From the NCBI GenBank assembly GCA_900197615.1, contig FZLR01000022.1:1-38698 (forward strand): a stretch of 38,698 nucleotides of DNA, in the 5' to 3' direction. Below the pieces are notes generated by a model. That model ran no database searches and was not told where the DNA came from. It saw only the letters and a list, made by a program, of their open reading frames with translations. The stretch is from Rhodospirillaceae bacterium Spongia-Bin9. Its GTDB lineage: Bacteria > Pseudomonadota > Alphaproteobacteria > Bin65. Shown here in pieces: positions 2,533 to 14,029 of the stretch (position 1 is the stretch's first letter; every line of letters starts with the position of its first letter). Position numbers and translations under genes: made by a program.

Positions 2533-3564
2533 TCAGGCCGCGACATCCCAGGTCGAGCCGCGGTGCAGCAGGGTGTTCATGTCGCCCCTGGTCGGCGCCT
2601 GGTCGGCAATCGCCTTGTTTTGCGCAAGGACGGCCCGTTCGTAGCTCATCTCCGCCGGGGCGCAATAGAGCACGCCGACGGCGACCGGGAAGTCCGGCGG
2701 CTTCATGCGGGCGAGCGCCCCGCCGATGGTGCGGTTGGTCTCGTCGTGGACGATGACATTGTCCTCGCCGAAGCCGTCCTCGCCCAGGGTCGCAACCTCC
2801 AGTTCGAGCGTCTGGCGGTTGAGCCGCAGGCCCTTTTCCCGGTCCTTGCCGAAGATCAGCGGCTTGCCGTGTTCGGCCTCGAGCTGCATGTCCTCCTTCA
2901 CTTCCTTCTCGGTGAAATGCTCGAACACGCCGTCGTTGTAGACGATGCAGTTCTGGATGATCTCGACGAAGGAGCAGCCCTTGTGGGCGTGGGCGCGGGC
3001 GAGCAGGCCGGGCAGATGGTCCTGACGCCGGTCGATGCCGCGGGCGACGAAGCGGGCGTTGACGCCGAGCGCGAAGCTCAGCGCATCGACCGGCGAATCG
3101 ATCGAGCCGTGGGGCGTGGAGGGCGAGCGGGTGCCGAGCCGCGAGGTCGGCGAATACTGCCCCTTGGTCAGGCCGTAGATCTCGTTGTTGAACAGCAGAT
3201 AGCTGATGTCGACGTTGCGCCGGATGGCGTGCAGCGTGTGGTTGCCGCCGATGGAAAGCCCGTCGCCGTCGCCGCCGACGACCCAGACGTCGAGGTCAGG
3301 GTTCGCCAGCTTGATTCCGGTCGCGAAGCTCGGCGCCCGGCCGTGAATGGTGTGGAAACCGTAGGTCTCCATGTAATAGGGGAAGCGCGCCGCGCAGCCG
3401 ATGCCGGAGACGAACACGGTGCTCGCCGGATCGGCGCCGATATCGGCCATCGCCTTCTGCACCGCCTTCAGGATGGCATAGTCGCCGCAGCCGGGGCACC
3501 AGCGCACTTCCTGGTCGGTGGCGTAGTCTTTGGGCGACAGGTTCGCAGGTGTCTGAACGTTCAT
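2533..3564 (-). CDS. korB: 2-oxoacid:ferredoxin oxidoreductase, beta subunit
   Basis: 343-residue thiamine-diphosphate subunit of an enzyme that oxidatively decarboxylates a 2-oxoacid (2-oxoglutarate most likely) to its CoA ester and reduces ferredoxin. The CPGCGDY motif gives Cys23 and Cys26; with Cys57 (GIGC) and Cys206 (IIQNC) these are the expected four ligands of a single [4Fe-4S] cluster. The ThDP motif starts at GDGDG (98-102) and closes at NN (about 126-127). It starts 19 bp after the alpha subunit, preceded by GGAG, and is clearly the second gene of that operon. No separate ferredoxin-like delta subunit is present, as in the two-subunit, aerobic-type KorAB enzymes. Substrate choice between 2-oxoglutarate and other oxoacids is inference. 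Confidence 0.9.
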   Translation of the reverse strand: MNVQTPANLSPKDYATDQEVRWCPGCGDYAILKAVQKAMADIGADPASTVFVSGIGCAARFPYYMETYGFHTIHGRAPSFATGIKLANPDLDVWVVGGDGDGLSIGGNHTLHAIRRNVDISYLLFNNEIYGLTKGQYSPTSRLGTRSPSTPHGSIDSPVDALSFALGVNARFVARGIDRRQDHLPGLLARAHAHKGCSFVEIIQNCIVYNDGVFEHFTEKEVKEDMQLEAEHGKPLIFGKDREKGLRLNRQTLELEVATLGEDGFGEDNVIVHDETNRTIGGALARMKPPDFPVAVGVLYCAPAEMSYERAVLAQNKAIADQAPTRGDMNTLLHRGSTWDVAA

Positions 3565-3583
3565 CGCTGTTTCTCCGCCGGCC

Positions 3584-5440
3584 CTACAGCCAGTCTTTCA
3601 GGGCGTCTTCGATTTCGACGATGCGGAACGGCTTGCCGTTCACCTTGTTGAGCGGTTTGGCATCGACAAGATATTCGGCGCGCAGCACGGTCACCAGCTG
3701 GCCGGTATTCATCTCCGGCACGATCACGGTGTCGTAGCTCTTGAGCAGGTCGCCCAGATTGGGCGGCATGGGCCGGATATGGCGGATGTGGATGTGGGAC
3801 ACATCGTGCCCCTGCGCGCGCTTGTTGGAGACGGCCCGGCTGATCGGCCCGTAGGTCGAGCCCCAGCCGACGACGGCCACCCTGCCGCCCGCCCGGCCCT
3901 GGTCGACCGCCTGGGCCGGGATGTCATTGGCGATGCCGAGGATCTTGTTCAGGCGGTTGTCCGTCATCTCCTGGTGATTGTCTGCGTCGTAGGAGATGTC
4001 GCCGGTAAGGTGATGCTTTTCGATGCCGCCGATCCGGTGCAGCAGGCCGGGCGTTCCCGGCTTCACCCAGGCCCGGGCCATCGTTTCGGGATCGCGGGCA
4101 TAGACCTGGTAGCCCTCCGGATCCGTGCGGAAGGTTACCGGGAAGGGCTCGTGATCCTCGAAGTCCGGGATCAGCCAGGGCTCGGCGGCGTTGCTGATAT
4201 AGCCGTCGGTCAGGAACATCACCGGCGTCATGTATTTGACCGCCAGGCGGCAAGCCTCGATGGCGGCGAAATAGGCGTCGCCGGGGGAATGGCAGGCGAC
4301 CACGGCGAGCGGCGAATCGGCGTTGCGGCCGTAGATCGCCTGATACAGGTCCGACTGTTCGGTCTTGGTCGGCAGGCCGGTCGAGGGGCCGCCGCGCTGG
4401 GAATTGACGACGACGAGCGGCAGTTCGGTGGCGATCGCCAGGCCGATGGCTTCGGTCTTGAGCGCGATGCCGGGCCCCGAACTGGAGGTGACGCCCAGCG
4501 AGCCGGCATAGGAGCCGCCGATCGCCGCGCAGACCGCCGCGATTTCGTCCTCCGCCTGGAAAGTCGTGACGCCGTAATCCTTGAGCGGCGCCAGCAGATG
4601 CAGCAGCGCCGAGGCCGGCGTGATCGGATAGCCGGTGAACAGCAGGGGCAGCCCGGCCAGCCGGGCGCCGGCGACCAGCCCCATCGCCACGCCTTCCGCG
4701 CCGGTGAGCGCCCGGTAGGTGCCGGGCTTGATATCCGCCGGCGGCACCACGAAGCTGCCGAACTCGCGCGCCATGTCCGCGGTCTCGCCGAAGGCATGGC
4801 CGGCGTTGAGGGCCGCGATGTTGGCGTTGGCGATCGCCGGTTTGCGGGCGAATTTCTGCTTCAGCCAGTCTTCGTTGATCGTCCGGTCGCGCCCGAACAG
4901 CCAGTCGACCAGGCCGAGCGCCCACATATTCTTGCAGCGCTGCGCGTCCTTGTTGCCCAGGCCGAACGGTTTTACCGCCTCGACCGTCATGCGGGTCATA
5001 TCGACTTCGAGCTTGCGGTAGCCGTCGAGCGTGCCGTCTTCGAGCGGATTTTCCTCAAAGCCGGCCTTGTTCAGATTGCGCCGCGAGAACGAGCCGGTAT
5101 CGACGATGATCAGCCCGCCTTTGCGCAGGTCGCCCAGATTGGTCTTGAGCGCCGCCGGATTCATGGCGACCAGCACGTCGACCGCGTCGCCCGAAGTCCG
5201 GATCGTGCGCGAGCCGAAATGAATCTGGAACGCCGAGACGCCGAAAGTCGTACCGGCCGGGGCGCGGATCTCGGCCGGAAAGTCCGGAAAAGTCGCGAGA
5301 TCGTTCCGCGCCATGGCGGTGGCCTGGGTGAACTGGGTCCCGGTGAGCTGCATGCCGTCGCCGGAATCGCCGGCAAAGCGGACGACTGCGCTTTCGAGTT
5401 CGTTACCGGATTCGTCCGATACGGCCGAGCCGCCATCCAT
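3584..5440 (-). CDS. korA: 2-oxoacid:ferredoxin oxidoreductase, fused gamma-alpha subunit
   Basis: 618-residue partner of the beta subunit. The N-terminal third is the gamma domain (GDSGDGMQ at 24-31, CoA/ferredoxin-side catalysis). It is fused to the alpha pyrimidine-binding domain, whose hallmark YPITPAS is at 271-277, followed by the C-terminal transketolase-like domain (MTPVMFLTDGY region and VVGWGSTYGP). Fused gamma-alpha architecture plus a separate beta of about 340 residues is typical of 2-oxoglutarate:ferredoxin oxidoreductases of aerobic or microaerobic bacteria. The ATG at 5440 has AAGGAG 8 bases upstream. The gene heads the korA-korB operon, and reduced ferredoxin made here could equilibrate with NADPH through the adjacent FprA-type reductase (inference). 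Confidence 0.91.
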   Translation of the reverse strand: MDGGSAVSDESGNELESAVVRFAGDSGDGMQLTGTQFTQATAMARNDLATFPDFPAEIRAPAGTTFGVSAFQIHFGSRTIRTSGDAVDVLVAMNPAALKTNLGDLRKGGLIIVDTGSFSRRNLNKAGFEENPLEDGTLDGYRKLEVDMTRMTVEAVKPFGLGNKDAQRCKNMWALGLVDWLFGRDRTINEDWLKQKFARKPAIANANIAALNAGHAFGETADMAREFGSFVVPPADIKPGTYRALTGAEGVAMGLVAGARLAGLPLLFTGYPITPASALLHLLAPLKDYGVTTFQAEDEIAAVCAAIGGSYAGSLGVTSSSGPGIALKTEAIGLAIATELPLVVVNSQRGGPSTGLPTKTEQSDLYQAIYGRNADSPLAVVACHSPGDAYFAAIEACRLAVKYMTPVMFLTDGYISNAAEPWLIPDFEDHEPFPVTFRTDPEGYQVYARDPETMARAWVKPGTPGLLHRIGGIEKHHLTGDISYDADNHQEMTDNRLNKILGIANDIPAQAVDQGRAGGRVAVVGWGSTYGPISRAVSNKRAQGHDVSHIHIRHIRPMPPNLGDLLKSYDTVIVPEMNTGQLVTVLRAEYLVDAKPLNKVNGKPFRIVEIEDALKDWL

Positions 5441-5511
5441 CGGCTCTCTCCTTCCGTCCTGCGGGGCCGTCGACGATTTTCGCCTGGCCCCGAACTTCGT
5501 CGCGCCTGCCG

Positions 5512-5540
5512 CTTATAGCGGGGCACGGGCGATCGTTAAA
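5512..5540 (-). promoter_or_regulatory. Candidate sigma-70-type promoter of korA
   Basis: On the minus strand TTTAAC (5535-5540) and TATAAG (5512-5517) are separated by 17 bp, about 72 bp upstream of the korA ATG. The element lies in a locally AT-rich gap between fprA and korA. Read by eye only. Confidence 0.35.
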
Positions 5541-5606
5541 GTCCCGAACAATCAGCTTTCCGAATATTTCATACCTAAACCAGTTTTCCGCGCCGCACGC
5601 CGCGGG

Positions 5607-6917
5607 TCAGTCCAGCACAGCCAGCATTTCCGGGACCCGGCCGAACTTGCGGCGCGGCGCCGGCGGTGCGGCCGCACTCTCTTCGGCGACTTCGATCCGT
5701 TTCCAGTCGTCGAAGGACACAACCCGGATATTGTTGGCCTGCAAATGATTGTCCAGCGCCGCACGGCCCGGTTTCCCGGCCCCGGCGCCGCAATCCTCGA
5801 CGATCTGCTGCGCCGCCGCCGTGCCGTCCGGCTTGTTGGAACCGATCACGCCGGAGGGGCCGCGTTTGATCCAGCCGACCGCATAGAGGCCGGGCTCGAT
5901 CCGGCCGTCGCGGTTTCGGCTCCGGCCGCTTTCGAACGGCACACCGTCGACCGGTTCGGAGTAATAGCCGATCGCCGGGATAACCAGCCTGCAGGCAATG
6001 TCGAAGGTCTCGCCGGTGCCGACCGCCCGACCGCCCTCGATCCGCGTCCGCTCCATCCGGATGCCTTCGACCCGGTCGCCGCCGAGGATCTCGACCGGGC
6101 TGGCGTAAAAGCGAAAGTGCACCCGTTTGGTCCTGCCGGCCGGTTCCATGGCGGCGAAATCGTGCAGGGTCGCCAGGTTGCGCCGGGTCATGCGCAGATC
6201 CCGGTCGCTCAGCGTGGCGGCAAAATCCTCCGGCACGTCCGGCGTCAGTTCGGCCGGGTCCAGCACCGGGGCGCTGTCCTCGAGTTGGCCCATTTCGCGC
6301 AGTTCGACATTGCTGAACTTGGCATGGTGCGGGGCGCGCCGGCCGAACATGTAGACATCGCGGATCGGCGCGGCATGGATCGCTGCGGCGGCATAATCGG
6401 TGAGGTCCGTCGCCGCCATCTCGTTCGGCGTCTTGGTCAGGACCCGGGCGACATCGACGGCGACGTTGCCGACGCCGATCACGGCGACTGCTTGCGTATC
6501 CAGCGGCGGATCGAGGTCGCGGAAATCGGGATGGCCGTTGTACCAGCCGACGAAGGCGGCGACGCCGAGCACGCCCGCCTTGCCGTCGCCGGGAATCCCC
6601 AGGGGCCGGTCGACGGCGGCGCCGGTCGCCAGCACGACGGCGTCGTAGATCCCGCGCAATGCCTCCAGGCCGATATCGGCGCCCAGGGTTACGTTGCCGT
6701 AGTAGCGCACCCGCGGGTCGCGCGCCGTCTTTTCGTAGGTCCGCGCGATATTCTTGGTCTTGGCGTGGTCCGGGGCGACGCCGCCGCGGATCAGGCCATA
6801 AGGGGTGGGCAGTTTCTCGATAATGTCGATTTCGACATCGTCGATCGTGCGCATGAGGGATTCGGCCGTGTAGAAGCCGCTCGGCCCGGAGCCGATGATT
6901 GCGACGCTCAACGTCAT
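5607..6917 (-). CDS. fprA: FprA-type ferredoxin/flavodoxin-NADP+ reductase (adrenodoxin reductase family)
   Basis: 436-residue FAD enzyme exchanging electrons between NADPH and a ferredoxin or flavodoxin in the cytoplasm. The FAD site is IIGSGPSGFYTAE (about 7-19). TPYGLIRGGVAPDH and the NADP-site GVGNVAVDVAR are signatures of the glutathione-reductase-fold FprA/adrenodoxin reductase group, unlike the plant-type fold found in BoxA. There is no fused ferredoxin domain. The ATG at 6917 has no clear Shine-Dalgarno sequence, but the Rossmann motif follows at once, so the start is firm. Upstream of korA on the same strand, 166 bp away. With korAB and the nearby flavodoxin it could form the electron supply to oxygenases such as BoxB (inference). 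Confidence 0.9.
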   Translation of the reverse strand: MTLSVAIIGSGPSGFYTAESLMRTIDDVEIDIIEKLPTPYGLIRGGVAPDHAKTKNIARTYEKTARDPRVRYYGNVTLGADIGLEALRGIYDAVVLATGAAVDRPLGIPGDGKAGVLGVAAFVGWYNGHPDFRDLDPPLDTQAVAVIGVGNVAVDVARVLTKTPNEMAATDLTDYAAAAIHAAPIRDVYMFGRRAPHHAKFSNVELREMGQLEDSAPVLDPAELTPDVPEDFAATLSDRDLRMTRRNLATLHDFAAMEPAGRTKRVHFRFYASPVEILGGDRVEGIRMERTRIEGGRAVGTGETFDIACRLVIPAIGYYSEPVDGVPFESGRSRNRDGRIEPGLYAVGWIKRGPSGVIGSNKPDGTAAAQQIVEDCGAGAGKPGRAALDNHLQANNIRVVSFDDWKRIEVAEESAAAPPAPRRKFGRVPEMLAVLD

Positions 6918-8116: not shown

Positions 8117-9544
8117 CTACAGCCGGACATACTCGTAGTCGACGGGGTTGTTGTTGATGCCGCGGTCGGGCGGCGCGATCCAGCCCGCCATTTTGCCCGG
8201 CTCGGTCACCTGTTTCATCATGGCCTTGACATGGGCCCTGTCGGCGTCCGACGGGACCCAGCCGCCGATCCGGCTTTCGTACGCCTCGCGGCCGATCGGC
8301 GTGCCGTCCGGTGCGAAATGGAAACCCGCAAAGGGGCCGACCGTCCGGCGGAAGCGGTCGGACGGCAGGCTTATTTCGAAATCGACGCCGGCCTTCCGGA
8401 TCATCCGGTTCCAGCGCGTGATGCCGATATCGCAGTCCTTCGAATAGCCCTTGCGCGCCACAAGGTTCATGGCGTTGCGCGTCGGGATGTCGACGTCGTT
8501 CACGCCCGCGCCGTCTTCCGTCGGCTCCTCGATGCTGTAGGCCGTATCCGCCTCGATGTGGTCCTCGAACCGGTCTTCGTCCGGCCGGCCCTTGAGGCCG
8601 TTGGCGAAATAGGCCGCCGCGTTGGTCGACCGGTCGGCGCCGAACAGGTCGAGGGAGGAGGAATACCAGAAATTGACGTATCGCTGGACCAGCCCCAGAT
8701 CCATCGCCCCGTGATCGCGGATGCGCTGCGGATCGTCGGTGTTCAACTCCTGCATGACCTCCAGCGCCCGCCGGATGACCCGGCCGAGGCCGGTTTCGCC
8801 GACGAACATATGGTGGGCTTCCTCGGTCAGCATGAAGCGGCAGGTGCGCGACAGCGGGTCGAAGGCGCTCTCGGCCAGCATCTTGAGCTGGAACTTGCCG
8901 TCCCGGTCGGTGAAATAGGTGAAGCTGAAGAACGACATCCAGTCGTCGATCGGCTCGTTGAAGGTCGTCAGGATGCGCGGATTGTTGACGTCGCCGGAAT
9001 GGCGCTCCAGCAGGTCTTCGGCTTCCTCGCGGCCGTCGCGGCCGAAATGGGCGTGGAGCAGGTAGACCATGGCCCACAGATGCCGGCCTTCCTCGACATT
9101 GACCTGGAACAGGTTGCGCATGTCGTAGAGCGACGGGCAGGTGTAGGCGAGCATGCGCTGCTGCTCGACCGAGGCCGGTTCGGTATCGCCCTGGGTCACG
9201 ATCAACCGGCGTAGGTCGGCGCGGAACTCGCCCGGCACCTGCTGCCACACCGGCTGGCCGAAATTGTCGCCGAAGCCGATGGTGCGGTCCTGGACCTTGT
9301 CGGCCAGGAAGATGCCCCAGCGGTAGTCCGGCATCTTCACATGGCCATAGGTCGCCCAACCCTTGGCGTCGACCGAGGTCGCCGTGCGCAGATAAACGTC
9401 CCGTGCCTGGAAATCGCCGTCGGGGCCCATCTCGCCCCACCAGTTCAGGAAGGCGGGCTGCCACCGCTCCAGTGCGCGCTGAAGCTGGCGGTCGGCGCTG
9501 AGGTCGACATTGTTCGGAATCTTCTCGGCGTAGTCGATCGACAT
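8117..9544 (-). CDS. boxB: Benzoyl-CoA 2,3-epoxidase (oxygenase) subunit BoxB
   Basis: 475-residue soluble di-iron epoxidase that converts benzoyl-CoA and O2 to 2,3-epoxybenzoyl-CoA in the aerobic CoA-dependent (box) benzoate pathway. Carboxylate/His iron ligands are visible in two helices: EEGRH at 151-155 and EEAHH at 241-245, with further Glu residues near 122-127. Length and N-terminus match known BoxB. The enzyme needs two electrons, normally from BoxA, a ferredoxin/FNR-type reductase; no boxA is present in this window. It follows boxC by 52 bp in the same operon and is closed by the hairpin at 8065-8088. Confidence 0.94.
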   Translation of the reverse strand: MSIDYAEKIPNNVDLSADRQLQRALERWQPAFLNWWGEMGPDGDFQARDVYLRTATSVDAKGWATYGHVKMPDYRWGIFLADKVQDRTIGFGDNFGQPVWQQVPGEFRADLRRLIVTQGDTEPASVEQQRMLAYTCPSLYDMRNLFQVNVEEGRHLWAMVYLLHAHFGRDGREEAEDLLERHSGDVNNPRILTTFNEPIDDWMSFFSFTYFTDRDGKFQLKMLAESAFDPLSRTCRFMLTEEAHHMFVGETGLGRVIRRALEVMQELNTDDPQRIRDHGAMDLGLVQRYVNFWYSSSLDLFGADRSTNAAAYFANGLKGRPDEDRFEDHIEADTAYSIEEPTEDGAGVNDVDIPTRNAMNLVARKGYSKDCDIGITRWNRMIRKAGVDFEISLPSDRFRRTVGPFAGFHFAPDGTPIGREAYESRIGGWVPSDADRAHVKAMMKQVTEPGKMAGWIAPPDRGINNNPVDYEYVRL

Positions 9545-9596: not shown

Positions 9597-11252
9597 TTAC
9601 ACGCGCTGCCACTTGAAGCTGGGTTTGGTGCCGGTGCCGTAGAGCTTGAGCGCGCCCTGGTCGCCGACGGCGTTGGGCCGGATGAAGATCCAGTTCTGCC
9701 AGGCGGTGAGCCGGCCGAACACCTTGGTGGCCATCGTCTCCCGGCCGCCGAAACGCAGGCTGGCCTCCATGCCGGTGAGCGCGTCGGGGGACAGGCTGGA
9801 GCGCTCCTCGATGGCGAGGCGCACTTCGTCCTCCCAGTCCAGATCGTCCGGCGCGAAGGTCACGAGGCCGAGCGCGTCGGCGTCTTCCGGGCCGATGGCC
9901 TCGCCGATCCGGGCCTTCGCCGCGGCTTCGGCGTCGGCATCCTCCTGGAAATGCGCAGAGATCCGGGTCAAGCCGTTCGGCATCGGGAACAGGCCGAAAT
10001 TGGTTTCGTCCAGCACGATGGCCGGCGAATTCTCCGGCTCCTCCCGGTCGTCGAGCATGTAGGAGCGGTCGGCGGCCAGCAGCAACTCGGCGAGAATGCC
10101 GGCGAAACAGGTTCCCGAATCGGCGATCGCGAACAGGCTGCGCGACGAGACGTCGAGGCGGGCGAGCGTCCGCTTCAGATACTGGACCGTTTCGTTGACG
10201 AACCAGTTGTCCCGGTTCTCCAGCAGCGACTTGCCGGCCGCGAGGATCCTGCCGGGATCGCCTTCGGCGCGCAGCAGCCACAGGCCGATGTCGGTGTTGT
10301 TCGTGCGCAGCATCAGGATCGCGTCGTCCAGTTCGCGTGTCATCTGCAAGGCCCACCAGCCGGCGCCGGCAGCCTCGATCTCCTCAGCCGTCGCCGGCGG
10401 GTCGCCCGCCGGGCTACGCACCGTCAGAGTCGCGGTGCGGTCGGCGGAATTCAGCGCCACGTCGACGAATTCGTAGTGGTAGCCGTCGTCGTCGATCCGG
10501 CGGTTCAGGGGCGTCAGCTTCACGCCTTCGGCACTGTCCGGGCGGCCGGACCGGGCGGCCAGCGCCTTTGCCCGGTCGGCGACCAGTTCATCGAACGCCG
10601 CCGGCGGCGCATAATCGTCGATCAGCTTCCACGCCTTGGCCCGATCGGCGCGCACACCTTCGGAGGTCGTGCAGAACACATCGGCCAGATCGCGGCGCAC
10701 CTTGCGCTTGTCGGTCACCCGGGTCAGGCCGCCGGTGCCGGGCAGCACGCCGAGCAACGGTACTTCGGGCAAGCTGACGGTGGAGGACCGGTCGTTGACC
10801 ATCACGATCTCGTCGCAGGCGAGCGCCAGCTCATAGCCGCCGCCGGCGCAGGCGCCGTTGACCGCCGCGACGGACTTGAGGCCGGAGGTTTCCGACATGT
10901 CCTCGATGCCGTTGCGGGTCTCGTTGGTGAATTTGCAGAAATTCACCTTCCACCAGTGCTCGGAAGTGGACAGCATGTTGATGTTGGCGCCGGCGCAGAA
11001 CACGCGGTCCTTGCCGCTGGTGAGGACCGCGACCTTGACCGACGGATGCTCGAAGCGGAGGCGCTGCAGGGCGTCGGACAGTTCCATATCCACGCCGAGG
11101 TCGTAGGAATTCAGTTTCAGCTTGTATCCGGGCTTCAGGCCGCCGTCCTCGGCAACGTCCAGGGTCAGCCGCGCGACGTCGCCGTCGATATCGATCGACC
11201 AGTGTTTGTAGTCGCCGGGCTCCCGGTCATACAGGACGATGTTCTCGGTCAT
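9597..11252 (-). CDS. boxC: Benzoyl-CoA-dihydrodiol lyase BoxC
   Basis: 551-residue member of the enoyl-CoA hydratase (crotonase) superfamily. It opens the epoxide ring made by BoxB, giving 3,4-dehydroadipyl-CoA semialdehyde and formate. The crotonase region shows the oxyanion-hole segment (FCAGANINML, about 88-97) and AVNGACAGGGYELALACDEI around 132-151. The double-length architecture is the normal one for BoxC. ATG at 11252 follows GGGGAG at good spacing. First gene of boxC-boxB; its promoter contains the TGCA-N6-TGCA operator at 11327-11340. The next pathway enzyme (BoxD aldehyde dehydrogenase) and benzoate-CoA ligase are not in the window. Confidence 0.94.
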   Translation of the reverse strand: MTENIVLYDREPGDYKHWSIDIDGDVARLTLDVAEDGGLKPGYKLKLNSYDLGVDMELSDALQRLRFEHPSVKVAVLTSGKDRVFCAGANINMLSTSEHWWKVNFCKFTNETRNGIEDMSETSGLKSVAAVNGACAGGGYELALACDEIVMVNDRSSTVSLPEVPLLGVLPGTGGLTRVTDKRKVRRDLADVFCTTSEGVRADRAKAWKLIDDYAPPAAFDELVADRAKALAARSGRPDSAEGVKLTPLNRRIDDDGYHYEFVDVALNSADRTATLTVRSPAGDPPATAEEIEAAGAGWWALQMTRELDDAILMLRTNNTDIGLWLLRAEGDPGRILAAGKSLLENRDNWFVNETVQYLKRTLARLDVSSRSLFAIADSGTCFAGILAELLLAADRSYMLDDREEPENSPAIVLDETNFGLFPMPNGLTRISAHFQEDADAEAAAKARIGEAIGPEDADALGLVTFAPDDLDWEDEVRLAIEERSSLSPDALTGMEASLRFGGRETMATKVFGRLTAWQNWIFIRPNAVGDQGALKLYGTGTKPSFKWQRV

Positions 11253-11326
11253 GGTCGCTCCCCGGATGCCGCCATTCCGTCAGCGGCAGGTTGGCAGACG
11301 CGCGTCGTCGTCGCGTTTATGGAATA

Positions 11327-11357
11327 TGCAATATATTGCATTATTTCTTCGTTGCAA
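11327..11357 (-). promoter_or_regulatory. boxC promoter with overlapping BoxR/BzdR-type operator
   Basis: TGCAATATATTGCA at 11327-11340 is an exact TGCA-N6-TGCA element, the arrangement known for BzdR/BoxR operators. On the minus strand a promoter reading TTGCAA (11352-11357), 16 bp, TATATT (11330-11335) overlaps it, so a bound repressor would cover the -10 hexamer. A further TGCA is inside the -35. The boxC start is 75-80 bp downstream. Confidence 0.7.
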
Positions 11358-11363
11358 GCATTA

Positions 11364-12293
11364 TTATGCGGTACCGCGCCGCGCGTCGTTCAGGGCAAGC
11401 CCTAGGGCGTTCAACGTCGCTTCCGCCGAACGATTCGACGTGTCGAGCGCGACATCCGCACTTGCGTAGAGGGCGTGCCGCGTTTCGAGGATGCGTTTCA
11501 GGTCCGCCATCGCCTCGCCGCTGTTGTCCATCGGGCGGGTGTCGCCCTGTTCGCGCACGCGGCGCATATGATCTTCCGGCGAGGCCCGCAGCCAGACCGT
11601 GAAGCATTCCCGGACCAGCAGCTCGTAGGTCTCGGGCTCCGAAACGATGCTGCCGCCGGTTGCGATCACGCATTCCGGATGGATTGCCAGCACGTCCTCC
11701 AAAGCGCGGCGCTCATAGCGCCGGTAGGCGGGCTGCCCGGAAAGATCGAATATCTGGTCGACCGACATGCCGGCGGTCCGTTCGATCTCGCGCGCCATTT
11801 CGATGAACGGGACGTCCAGGCGCTGCGCCAGGGCGGCGCCGAGCGTGGTCTTGCCGGCGCCGCGCAGGCCGGTAAGCGCAATGCGGTCCATCCGGTGGCC
11901 GGTCCTGCCCAGCCCCAGGGCCTCGGTCAGCACGCGGTTGGCTTCGGCCAGTTCGTCCGTCTGCAGCCGTTCCAGCTTGCGGATCAGCAACGTCAGGTCG
12001 ACCGGCCGTTCTCTGCCCTCGCGAACCAGATCGGCGAGCGGCACGCTCATCGCTTCGGCGACCTTGCGCAACAGGGCGATGGAAATGTTGCCCTTGCCGG
12101 TTTCGAGCTGGGCCAGATAGCGCTCCGACACACCGGACGCGCGCGACAGGATCCGGCGCGACATGCCGCGCCGGGCGCGTGCCGCGCGCACGCGCTCGCC
12201 CAGCCCGGTCAAGTAGGCGTCGAGCCCGCCGTCGCCATTGCTGCGGGCGTCCGGCGCGGACGGGTCGGCAGGCGATCGTGCGGAGGTATCCAT
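11364..12293 (-). CDS. boxR: BoxR/BzdR-type repressor: XRE helix-turn-helix fused to a shikimate-kinase-like domain
   Basis: 309-residue regulator of the benzoyl-CoA pathway; family members repress until benzoyl-CoA binds the C-terminal domain. Residues about 28-90 are an XRE-type HTH (LGERVRAARARRGMSRRILS, then GVSERYLAQLE). A linker leads to a shikimate-kinase fold with an intact P-loop, GLRGAGKT at 142-149, and ATGGS further on. The ATG at 12293 is preferred over one 20 codons upstream, because that one lies within the AT-rich promoter next to a BoxR-like site. The gene stops 111 bp upstream of boxC on the same strand. Its own promoter carries a near-copy of the boxC operator, which suggests autoregulation. 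Confidence 0.92.
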   Translation of the reverse strand: MDTSARSPADPSAPDARSNGDGGLDAYLTGLGERVRAARARRGMSRRILSRASGVSERYLAQLETGKGNISIALLRKVAEAMSVPLADLVREGRERPVDLTLLIRKLERLQTDELAEANRVLTEALGLGRTGHRMDRIALTGLRGAGKTTLGAALAQRLDVPFIEMAREIERTAGMSVDQIFDLSGQPAYRRYERRALEDVLAIHPECVIATGGSIVSEPETYELLVRECFTVWLRASPEDHMRRVREQGDTRPMDNSGEAMADLKRILETRHALYASADVALDTSNRSAEATLNALGLALNDARRGTA

Positions 12294-12324
12294 GCTGCAA
12301 GCCGAATCTCGAAGGGTCCCGCAG

Positions 12325-12356
12325 GATATATGCAATATAATGCTTGTATTCAAGCA
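12325..12356. promoter_or_regulatory. Divergent boxR/flavodoxin control region with BoxR-like site
   Basis: TGCAATATAATGCT (12331-12344) differs from the boxC operator at two positions and keeps the TGCA-N6-TGCn layout. It overlaps a perfect palindrome, TGCTTG-TATT-CAAGCA, at 12341-12356. For boxR (minus) it lies exactly in the 17-bp spacer between TTGAAT (12348-12353) and TATATC (12325-12330). On the plus strand it includes a consensus TATAAT (12336-12341) facing the flavodoxin gene, with no good -35. One bound repressor could therefore control both genes. Confidence 0.6.
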
Positions 12357-12472
12357 GAAACGGATTTATCTTGCGCGCCGCGTGCCGACGGACCGGGCAT
12401 TCGCTGCATTGGACAGCCCGCCGAAGGCCGGTACAACCGGGATCGAACCCGAGACATGTTGGAGCAACGGTC

Positions 12473-12943
12473 GTGGAACTGAAAATTCTCGTCGGCACGA
12501 TGACCGGCACCGCCGAAATGGTGGCGGAGGAGATGAGCGACACGCTGGCCGAACTCGGCCATGAGGTGGATGTCGAGGCGATGGACGATCTCGACATATC
12601 GGTGTTCGACGGCGGCGGCGATTTCCTGATCGTCTCTTCGACCTATGGCCAGGGCGACGTGCCGGACAACGCGATGGCGCTCTACGAAGGGCTGGTTCAG
12701 GACAAGCCGGACCTGAGCGGCGTGCGCTACGGCGTCTTCTCGCTCGGCGACATGACTTATTCCGACACCTTCAATTTCGGCGGCAAACGGTTCGACAAGG
12801 CGCTGGAAGACTGCGGCGCGGCGCGGATCGGCACGATCTTCACCCACGACGCCAGTTCCGGCACGATCCCGGAAGACGACGGCATCGAATGGGTCAAGGA
12901 GTGGATCGGAAATTTTAGCGAAGCCCGCGCTCTCGCCGCTTGA
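12473..12943 (+). CDS. MioC-type flavodoxin
   Basis: 156-residue flavodoxin-fold FMN protein acting as a one-electron carrier. The FMN phosphate loop GTMTGTAEMVAEE starts at residue 8. The ring-binding loops are SSTYGQGDVPDN (55-66) and GDMTYSDTFNFGGKRF (92-107). GTG at 12473 is chosen because homologues begin at this ELKIL strand and GGAG lies 8 bases upstream. The open frame extends further up, but without family similarity. It is transcribed divergently from boxR, and the 179-bp shared gap contains a BoxR-like operator, so co-regulation with boxCB is likely. With no boxA in the window it is a candidate electron donor to BoxB (inference); MioC proteins elsewhere serve biotin synthase and related enzymes. 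Confidence 0.88.
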   Translation: MELKILVGTMTGTAEMVAEEMSDTLAELGHEVDVEAMDDLDISVFDGGGDFLIVSSTYGQGDVPDNAMALYEGLVQDKPDLSGVRYGVFSLGDMTYSDTFNFGGKRFDKALEDCGAARIGTIFTHDASSGTIPEDDGIEWVKEWIGNFSEARALAA

Positions 12944-12947
12944 CCGA

Positions 12948-12965
12948 CCGGTCCGGGGGGACCGG
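12948..12965 (+). terminator. Possible terminator hairpin after the flavodoxin gene
   Basis: CCGGTCC and GGACCGG form a perfect 7-bp stem around GGGG, starting 4 bp after the flavodoxin stop. No T-run follows, so intrinsic termination is uncertain. Confidence 0.3.
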
Positions 12966-13042
12966 GGGGCGGCGTCGGACCCCTTCGTCCCGGGCCGGAT
13001 GTTGCAGCGGGCGTAATACCGGACGCAGGTTGCGTCAGCCAG

Positions 13043-14029
13043 TCAGACCAGCGCTTCGATCACCCTGTCCGGCGGCTTGTGGCCGTCGACGAACGTCTTG
13101 ATGTTGACGATCACCTTCTCCCCCATGTCGATCCGGCCGTCGATGGTCGCCGATCCCATGTGCGGCAGCAGCACGACATTGTCGAGACTGAGCAGCTTGG
13201 GGTTGACCGCCGGCTCGTGCTCGAACACGTCCAGCCCGGCGCCGGCGACCTCGCCGGCGGTCAGCATCCGGGTCAGCGCATTCTCGTCGATCACCTCGCC
13301 GCGCGCCGTGTTCACCACGATGGCGTGGGGCTTGAGCAGTTTCAGTCGCCGCGCCGACAGCAGGTGATAGGTCGCCGGCGTGTGCGGGCAGTTGACCGAC
13401 AGGATATCCATATGGGCGAGCATCTGGTCGAAGCTCTCCCAGAAGGTCGCCTCAAGTTCGGCTTCGGTCGCCGAATCGAGCCGGCGCCGGTTGTGATAGT
13501 GGACCGACAGGCCGAAACCGCGGGCGCGGCGCGCCAGCGCCCGGCCGATACGGCCCATGCCCAGAATGCCCAGCCGCTTGCCCCAGATCCGGTGGCCGAG
13601 CATGGTCGTCGGCCCCCAGCCCTTCCACTCGCCGGAGCGGATCAGCCGTTCGCCCTCGGCCACCCGGCGCGATACGGCGAGAATCAGCGCCATGGTCATG
13701 TCCGCGGTGTCTTCGGTCAGCACGCCGGGCGTGTTGGTCACCGCGATACCGCGCTCGCGCGCCGTGGCGAGATCGATATGGTCGACTCCGGTGCCGAAGG
13801 AGGCGATCAGGCGCAGCCGCGGCCCGGCCTGGGCCATGATACCCTTGTCGATCCGGTCGGTGACGGTCGGCACCAGAACGTCCGCCATCCTGCAGGCCTC
13901 GATCAGCTCGGCGCCGGTCATGGGCTGGTCGTCGCGGTTCAGCCGCGTGTCGAACAGCTCCATCATACGGGTCTCGATCGGGTCCGGCAGTTTACGGGTT
14001 ACGACGACGACCGGCTTTTCCTGCGCCAT
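13043..14029 (-). CDS. D-isomer-specific 2-hydroxyacid dehydrogenase (glyoxylate/hydroxypyruvate reductase-like)
   Basis: 328-residue NAD(P)H enzyme interconverting a 2-oxoacid and its D-2-hydroxyacid. The nucleotide-binding motif GILGMGRIG is in the middle of the protein. The catalytic Arg is in NTARGEVID, the Glu in GLDVFEHEP and the His in LLPHMGSAT, all in the expected order. Similarity in layout is to glyoxylate/hydroxypyruvate reductases, though formate or phosphoglycerate dehydrogenase-like activity cannot be excluded. The start at 14029 is preferred over one 48 codons upstream, since GAGGAG precedes it and the catalytic domain begins directly. Divergent from the SH3-domain gene. Confidence 0.88.
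   Translation of the reverse strand: MAQEKPVVVVTRKLPDPIETRMMELFDTRLNRDDQPMTGAELIEACRMADVLVPTVTDRIDKGIMAQAGPRLRLIASFGTGVDHIDLATARERGIAVTNTPGVLTEDTADMTMALILAVSRRVAEGERLIRSGEWKGWGPTTMLGHRIWGKRLGILGMGRIGRALARRARGFGLSVHYHNRRRLDSATEAELEATFWESFDQMLAHMDILSVNCPHTPATYHLLSARRLKLLKPHAIVVNTARGEVIDENALTRMLTAGEVAGAGLDVFEHEPAVNPKLLSLDNVVLLPHMGSATIDGRIDMGEKVIVNIKTFVDGHKPPDRVIEALV

Follow-up and report, generated by a model that had tools for sequence, protein, structure and literature searches.

A BoxR-linked flavodoxin as the probable substitute for BoxA in a widespread variant of the box pathway

We identified in a 38,698-nucleotide stretch of Rhodospirillaceae bacterium Spongia-Bin9 (contig FZLR01000022.1; hereafter the window, meaning the whole stretch of DNA analyzed) a box (aerobic benzoyl-CoA) gene set that combines a BoxB epoxidase with a small flavodoxin (Fld) and no BoxA reductase. 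Flavodoxin-linked BoxB without BoxA is a variant of the known box pathway and extends far beyond the window. Gene order, operator sequences and the BoxB phylogeny suggest that BoxA has probably been replaced by a route in which an NADPH reductase would pass electrons to the flavodoxin and the flavodoxin to BoxB, under the control of BoxR. The features of the locus are collected in Table 1.

Table 1. Genes and putative operators of the box locus in the window.
Feature	Position	Strand	Evidence or remark
boxB, benzoyl-CoA 2,3-epoxidase of the BoxA-less clade	8117-9544	-	TIGR03225, 752 bits
boxC, 2,3-epoxybenzoyl-CoA dihydrolase	9597-11252	-	TIGR03222, 893 bits
boxR, XRE and shikimate-kinase-like regulator	11364-12293	-	NF006015, 393 bits; PF01202 and PF01381
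Fld, MioC/YqcA/cindoxin-type short-chain flavodoxin, 156 aa, GTG start	12473-12943	+	PF00258, 100 bits; proposed BoxB donor
FprA/adrenodoxin-reductase-type NADPH reductase, candidate Fld reductase	5607-6917	-	1lqt and 1cjc matches
BoxR-type operator TGCAATATATTGCA at the boxC promoter	11327-11340		pattern search
BoxR-type operator TGCAATATAATGCT in the Fld/boxR divergent gap	12331-12344		pattern search

Profile searches of the window placed boxB, boxC and boxR each well above the NCBIfam cut-off, with BoxB at 752 bits against a TIGR03225 cut-off of 499.1. The Azoarcus structure 3per matched the window BoxB across almost its full length (638 bits), and the diiron ligand columns showed no variation across the 65 aligned rows, the ligands presumably being those (E, E, H, D, E and H) assigned by Rather et al. 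(2011). An initial annotation of this DNA had described a boxCB operon complete except for boxA and a flavodoxin starting divergently from boxR; the matches to TIGR03225, TIGR03222 and NF006015, the lack of a boxA and the PF00258 gene at 12473-12943 on the plus strand agree with that description. The PDB profile matches of Fld were YqcA (2m6r), MioC and cindoxin, and its scores stayed under both NCBIfam cut-offs (113 versus 158 bits for MioC and 116 versus 160 bits for PRK08105). Its AlphaFold model had a mean pLDDT of 92.6 and, among 50 listed matches, its top TM-scores were to cindoxin (4oxx, 0.87/0.89). Residues T11, S56-G59, G61, P64, N66, G92 and D93, which we take to be FMN-loop positions, were invariant across 19 rows. 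The predicted Fld is thus a flavodoxin fold with conserved FMN-loop residues and would be expected to bind FMN. Fld is under purifying selection, as are its neighbors: dN/dS was 0.07-0.11 against six members of the genus and 0.28-0.32 against two other genera, compared with 0.07-0.14 and 0.18-0.28 for BoxB, the synonymous sites of one relative (L063) being close to saturation in this comparison.

We compared the locus with 80 others, the best 80 of at least 591 confirmed matches to the window BoxB; with loci chosen by similarity to the window BoxB, the frequencies do not extend to BoxBs at large. Most of the sampled records are metagenome-assembled genomes (MAGs), and four occur both in the locus set and among the genomes of the same family (L062 is G002, L063 is G005, L064 is G009 and L065 is G010). 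The initial annotation had suggested a search for the flavodoxin-boxR-boxC-boxB order in related genomes lacking boxA. Fld accompanied boxR, boxC and boxB in 34 of the 80 loci, and 30 of these 34 genomes had no BoxA at E ≤ 1e-40; the remaining four had a second BoxB beside BoxA. In 33 of the 34 loci Fld was divergent from boxR, the gaps spanning 61-339 bp except for a single one of 1330 bp (measured between profile matches, not start codons); in L097 the order was boxR, flavodoxin, boxC. BoxA was present in 18 of the 80 loci, and only L066, which carries two BoxBs, had both BoxA and Fld. The record titles name Alpha-, Beta- and Gammaproteobacteria, among others, as well as an Acidobacteriaceae MAG. 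A benzoate-CoA ligase followed Fld on the same strand in 25 of the 34 loci; the distance was 29-176 bp for 22 of them and 565-1149 bp for the other three. The ligase family was verified for two of the 25 (TIGR02262, 777 and 783 bits). Among the loci without a ligase after Fld are L062, L063 and the window, in which none was found beside Fld. The best ligase candidate of the genome (626 bits) lies away from the window on contig C138, with no operator in the 18 kb examined. Thus, in the genus of the window, substrate supply lacks the tie to the flavodoxin operon that exists in Polaromonas.

The canonical BoxAB pair, with BoxA as recognized by TIGR03224, was found in none of the seven genomes of the genus. 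Against a cut-off of 459.2 bits, the best match in the genome of the window scored 23.9 bits and covered model positions 10-57 only, and the best in the other six scored 32.3 bits; the boxA elsewhere in the genome for which the initial annotation had allowed therefore did not appear. Within the same family, three genomes (G007, G008 and G010) each had a BoxB of 859-879 bits adjoining a BoxA of 593-641 bits as well as another BoxB (767-782 bits) no more than about 4 kb from the flavodoxin, and a fourth (G009, 74% complete) had no BoxA over the cut-off (best match, 80 bits). A search of the 80 genomes (E ≤ 1e-40) returned 24 with BoxA over the cut-off and 56 without, counting L132 as BoxA-less despite a partial 141-bit match under the cut-off and L110 as BoxA-positive despite a match split over two frames. 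In the first 50 genomes, all nine BoxA-positive ones had a second BoxB (864-925 bits) beside BoxA. The genome of the window is in 316 contigs and 95.9% complete, which would give room for a boxA that is merely missing from an incomplete assembly. With boxA in none of the seven genus genomes, BoxA lacking in 56 of the 80 genomes and six flavodoxin carriers among the BoxA-less records not titled MAG, we rejected this reading, whose probability is negligible. The six are Polaromonas sp. A23 and AER18D-145, Ramlibacter ginsenosidimutans, R. lithotrophicus (a BoxA call based on 28 of 31 candidates scored), Sphingobium wenxiniae and Oceanibacterium hippocampi.

The putative operators of the window also connect Fld with the boxRCB genes. 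As the initial annotation had noted, the site in the Fld/boxR gap (TGCAATATAATGCT) is two changes away from that at the boxC promoter (TGCAATATATTGCA). In the window, the loose pattern TGCA-N6-TGCA at one mismatch did not exceed chance expectation (14 sites versus 11.0); the fuller palindrome WGCANTATANTGCW occurred twice, against 0.00 across 100 shuffles. In the whole 4.06-Mb genome the exact palindrome was found in only three places, two of which flank boxR, and the backwards pattern in none. The third place (G000:C230:140-153, L238/L239) lies on another contig, 54 bp before an open reading frame (208-954) with an arylmalonate-decarboxylase-like domain (PF17645), a gene that could be a further BoxR target. 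The window palindrome fits the BoxR/BzdR consensus given in the available text of PMC6449761, ATGCACTATAGTGCAT, which itself has a TATA center. We examined 40 Fld/boxR gaps (33 from the 80 loci, the window and six further family members; seven come from one genus) and found the site exactly in 18, with at most one mismatch in 35 and with at most two in all 40, whereas dinucleotide shuffles of these gaps averaged 0.0, 0.08 (maximum 2) and 0.98, respectively. The five gaps with no site at one mismatch or fewer were those of L067, L068, L078, L103 and L104. In 19 of the 39 loci having both gaps, a site with at most one mismatch was present in the Fld/boxR gap only and the boxR/boxC gap held nothing better than three mismatches; therefore, Fld and boxRCB appear to share and answer to one operator. 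The initial annotation had also read a TATAAT within the operator as the promoter of the flavodoxin. Because the BoxR consensus has a TATA center, this hexamer is not independent evidence for a promoter, and a scan of positions 11200-13100 gave a single sigma-70-like match, on the minus strand at boxC (11357-11330) and overlapping TGCAATATATTGCA, and none on the plus strand towards the flavodoxin. We thus rejected the TATAAT as promoter evidence.

To our knowledge, BoxB catalyzes the only electron-consuming step of the box pathway. Given that the flavodoxin is co-regulated and co-inherited with boxB, and mostly as an alternative to BoxA, it is most simply understood as a replacement for BoxA. 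The distribution of the flavodoxin away from boxB bears on this reading. We searched with a flavodoxin profile 46 genomes with no Fld at the boxB locus and four positive controls (50 in total; all four controls were found) and recovered a box-type flavodoxin (201-233 bits) in seven of the 46, on another contig or beyond the boxB flank. All seven were within 1.5 kb of boxR and six also of a benzoate-CoA ligase; five were divergent from boxR (L070, L071, L072, L076 and L138) and two faced it (L109 and L110). The flavodoxin was thus present in 34 of 56 BoxA-less genomes (absent in 22) and in seven of 24 BoxA-positive genomes (absent in 17). The 22 BoxA-less genomes with neither partner include Planctomycetota, Myxococcota and others, as well as three Eremiobacterota of the window clade (L089, L091 and L100); one more, L064, seems to hold only a fragment at the contig edge. 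This flavodoxin is therefore not the sole possible donor. Furthermore, two of the 15 genomes with BoxA beside boxB (L109 and L110) also keep a box-type flavodoxin, which argues against strict exclusion. Both observations would fit a flavodoxin with an auxiliary role in the BoxR regulon, such as protecting or reactivating the diiron enzyme, with BoxB drawing its routine electrons from a housekeeping ferredoxin or flavodoxin system. We consider this unlikely, because the tight linkage of the flavodoxin to boxR and benzoate-CoA ligase, the single common operator in 19 of 39 loci and the near-complete lack of BoxA at Fld loci (1 of 34) all fit replacement better.

Several loci depart from these arrangements. 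In L110 (11440-12688), BoxA is split over two frames, through decay or sequencing error, and the box-type flavodoxin near boxR is retained. In seven loci from Myxococcota, Planctomycetota and others (L105, L107, L108, L111, L132, L134 and L136), boxR is divergent directly from boxC-boxB, and the flank examined contained neither BoxA nor flavodoxin. In three more (L123, L124 and L140), by our own reading of the sequence, an Rrf2-like regulator gene divergent from boxC-boxB occupies the usual position of boxR; these genomes have a flavodoxin of 147-149 bits away from boxB, with no boxR in the 3.4 kb examined there. Among the 26 loci with neither partner or of unknown context, no alternative reductase recurred near boxB in a search of open reading frames of at least 100 aa within 7 kb, a limit that small ferredoxins would escape. 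The neighbors that did recur there were a benzoate-CoA ligase (family match), a likely ABC substrate-binding protein and an acyl-CoA-dehydrogenase-like protein (both from matches below the cut-off) and, as we read their sequences, an Rrf2-like regulator, an acetyltransferase and a thioesterase.

We reconstructed the phylogeny of BoxB as unrooted trees of rows chosen by similarity to the window BoxB. A tree of 100 of the 108 rows (L103 is truncated and was left out; L151, L153, L155, L156, L157, L183 and L184 were taken as copies) placed 27 of 27 BoxA-adjacent rows on one side of one branch (support 99). The BoxA label required one change on this tree, versus 23.9 in shuffles, and the flavodoxin label 10 versus 31.5, with rows of unknown context treated as their own group (as in the group tables of both trees); excluding those rows gave six changes for Fld and one for BoxA. 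A more careful tree of 71 of the 108 rows, from which long and near-identical rows were excluded, recovered the BoxA clade (16 of 16 rows) with support 100/99 and in 100% of 200 bootstrap trees. The clade of the window (support 100/99) comprised 25 Fld rows, six with neither partner, five of unknown context and none with BoxA. The BoxA link is therefore confined to one branch of this sample. Two flavodoxin-linked rows (L117 and L125) fell inside a 26-row group with the BoxA clade (support 100/100). A third and distant BoxB type, with 540-566 bits on TIGR03225, was found in G009:C144 (L036), G010:C357 (L039; 555 bits) and G021:C22; L036 is on a very long branch of the 100-row tree.

The two BoxB types can be told apart, at 90% or more, by seven positions and a gap of one residue. 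At four of these positions (65, 193, 292 and 295), L117 and L125, although flavodoxin-linked, have the residue of the BoxA type; the marks thus follow the clade, not the donor. Such marks would be in line with a BoxB of the window clade that had diverged mainly in substrate, accepting another aroyl-CoA, with some organisms keeping both BoxBs for this reason. Loci with both types in a row would fit as well: in L066 (7139-11416), L072 (7328-11401) and L092 (2219-6248), where boxC precedes them, a tandem BoxB-BoxA-BoxB' has one BoxB from each clade and offers an in-genome comparison of the two types. Against a change of substrate, which we regard as improbable, the types hardly differ in the diiron ligand columns or over the 101-175 stretch, the ligase beside Fld scores as a member of the benzoate-CoA ligase family and BoxC matches TIGR03222; by itself, such a change would be compatible with the flavodoxin chain. 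The history of the two partners can be read more tentatively. The flavodoxin may have been the earlier partner of BoxB, with BoxA joining a single late branch and displacing it once, so that the textbook BoxA would be the exception; we hold this as a possible but rather doubtful scenario. The single change of BoxA on the tree speaks for it, as does the occurrence of box-type flavodoxins in genomes both of the window clade and of the group that includes the BoxA clade (L117, L125 and L138). Against it, neither partner is present in the rows nearest to the BoxA clade (L123, L131, L124, L140 and L116) or in the deeply placed rows of Planctomycetota and Myxococcota, and on an unrooted tree gain and loss of partners are not distinguishable.

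The initial annotation had also proposed NADPH, FprA, flavodoxin and BoxB as successive carriers of one chain. Its BoxA-independent flavodoxin-BoxB part under BoxR is strongly supported by the comparison of gene order, operators, BoxA absence and the single BoxA clade; the NADPH-FprA link came out weaker. The gene at 5607-6917, which starts 1.2 kb beyond boxB and is separated from it by a small Usg-like gene, does encode a reductase of the annotated type: residues 5-433 of its 436 align with 6-452 of the Mycobacterium tuberculosis FprA (1lqt, 312 bits), and adrenodoxin reductase (1cjc) matches with 310 bits. Its assignment as a KorC subunit was dropped, as the full-length FprA/adrenodoxin reductase match settles the type. 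An FprA-type gene lies near boxB in only seven of the 80 loci (L062, L063, L067, L068, L069, L070 and L078), and a different flavodoxin reductase must therefore serve most members; beside the 31 BoxA-labeled rows (nine of them covered for only 1.5 kb downstream) there was none of the FprA type. FprA is thus a good candidate for the Fld reductase in the window, not in general. In the window (2533-6917), as in L062 and L063, the FprA gene is followed by KorA and KorB, a 2-oxoacid:acceptor oxidoreductase and possible second source of electrons. That KorAB, not NADPH, feeds the flavodoxin in the genus of the window would agree with this FprA-KorA-KorB arrangement after boxB. We consider it very improbable, because KorA/KorB lie near boxB only in L062 and L063 of the 80 loci, both of the window genus, and other lineages have the FprA-type gene alone or none.

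Taken together, we propose that a small FMN flavodoxin replaces BoxA in this box gene set. BoxR would repress both boxR-boxC-boxB and the divergent flavodoxin through the palindrome in their common gap and, in the window, a second palindrome at boxC. By analogy with the known BoxR/BzdR regulators, benzoyl-CoA would release BoxR, and flavodoxin and BoxB would be produced at the same time. The flavodoxin would then receive electrons from an NADPH-dependent flavin reductase (in the window perhaps FprA, elsewhere probably a housekeeping flavodoxin reductase), dock on BoxB and reduce its diiron center for the epoxidation of benzoyl-CoA with O2. In this scheme we infer the binding of BoxR and of FMN and both electron-transfer steps.

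If the flavodoxin does replace BoxA, seemingly incomplete box clusters would be explained. The available text of PMC10803450 describes 13 contexts lacking an epoxidase subunit, which it takes for incomplete, and regards the absence of BoxA from one Paraburkholderia xenovorans LB400 copy as an impediment; for the chromosomal copy of this strain it gives BoxA as absent in one place and BoxA and BoxR as present in another. BoxR regulons have been described in Betaproteobacteria with boxCBA in PMC6449761, in whose main text the word "flavodoxin" does not occur. In the literature searched, which left most subscription journals outside its coverage, we found no paper linking a flavodoxin to BoxB. 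The replacement would make many BoxA-less benzoate degraders predictable and testable, with the flavodoxin present in 34 of the 56 BoxA-less genomes, and annotation should then look for the box flavodoxin. BoxB would represent a natural experiment in the change of donor of one diiron oxygenase.

The closest known system is the BoxA-BoxB pair of Azoarcus/Aromatoleum evansii (3per, 3pf7, 3pm5 and 3q1g), which has in common with the window the BoxB family, the diiron ligand columns, boxC and a BoxR-type regulator with its operator. Unlike that system, the window has no BoxA in the locus or genome and a flavodoxin instead, and its BoxB belongs to a different, fully supported clade. MioC and YqcA are the best NCBIfam and PDB kin of Fld, yet Fld scores under their cut-offs and, unlike them, is encoded with a catabolic operon. 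NrdI is a flavodoxin-like protein that serves NrdF, a ferritin-like dimetal oxidase, by helping to assemble its radical cofactor. Fld would similarly be the flavodoxin-like partner of a ferritin-like dimetal oxidase, but the role proposed for it is repeated catalytic reduction. In the cindoxin system, an FAD reductase, cindoxin reductase, passes electrons to cindoxin and cindoxin to the oxygenase P450cin, according to the available text of PMC9687028. In both sequence and fold, cindoxin ranks among the closest matches to Fld, and the route proposed for the window would likewise run from NADPH through an FAD reductase and a small FMN flavodoxin to an oxygenase. The oxygenase in the window is a diiron epoxidase and not a P450, its genes would be controlled by BoxR and the reductase is of the FprA type. 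By analogy, cindoxin and P450cin provide a working precedent for a dedicated flavodoxin that feeds an oxygenase.
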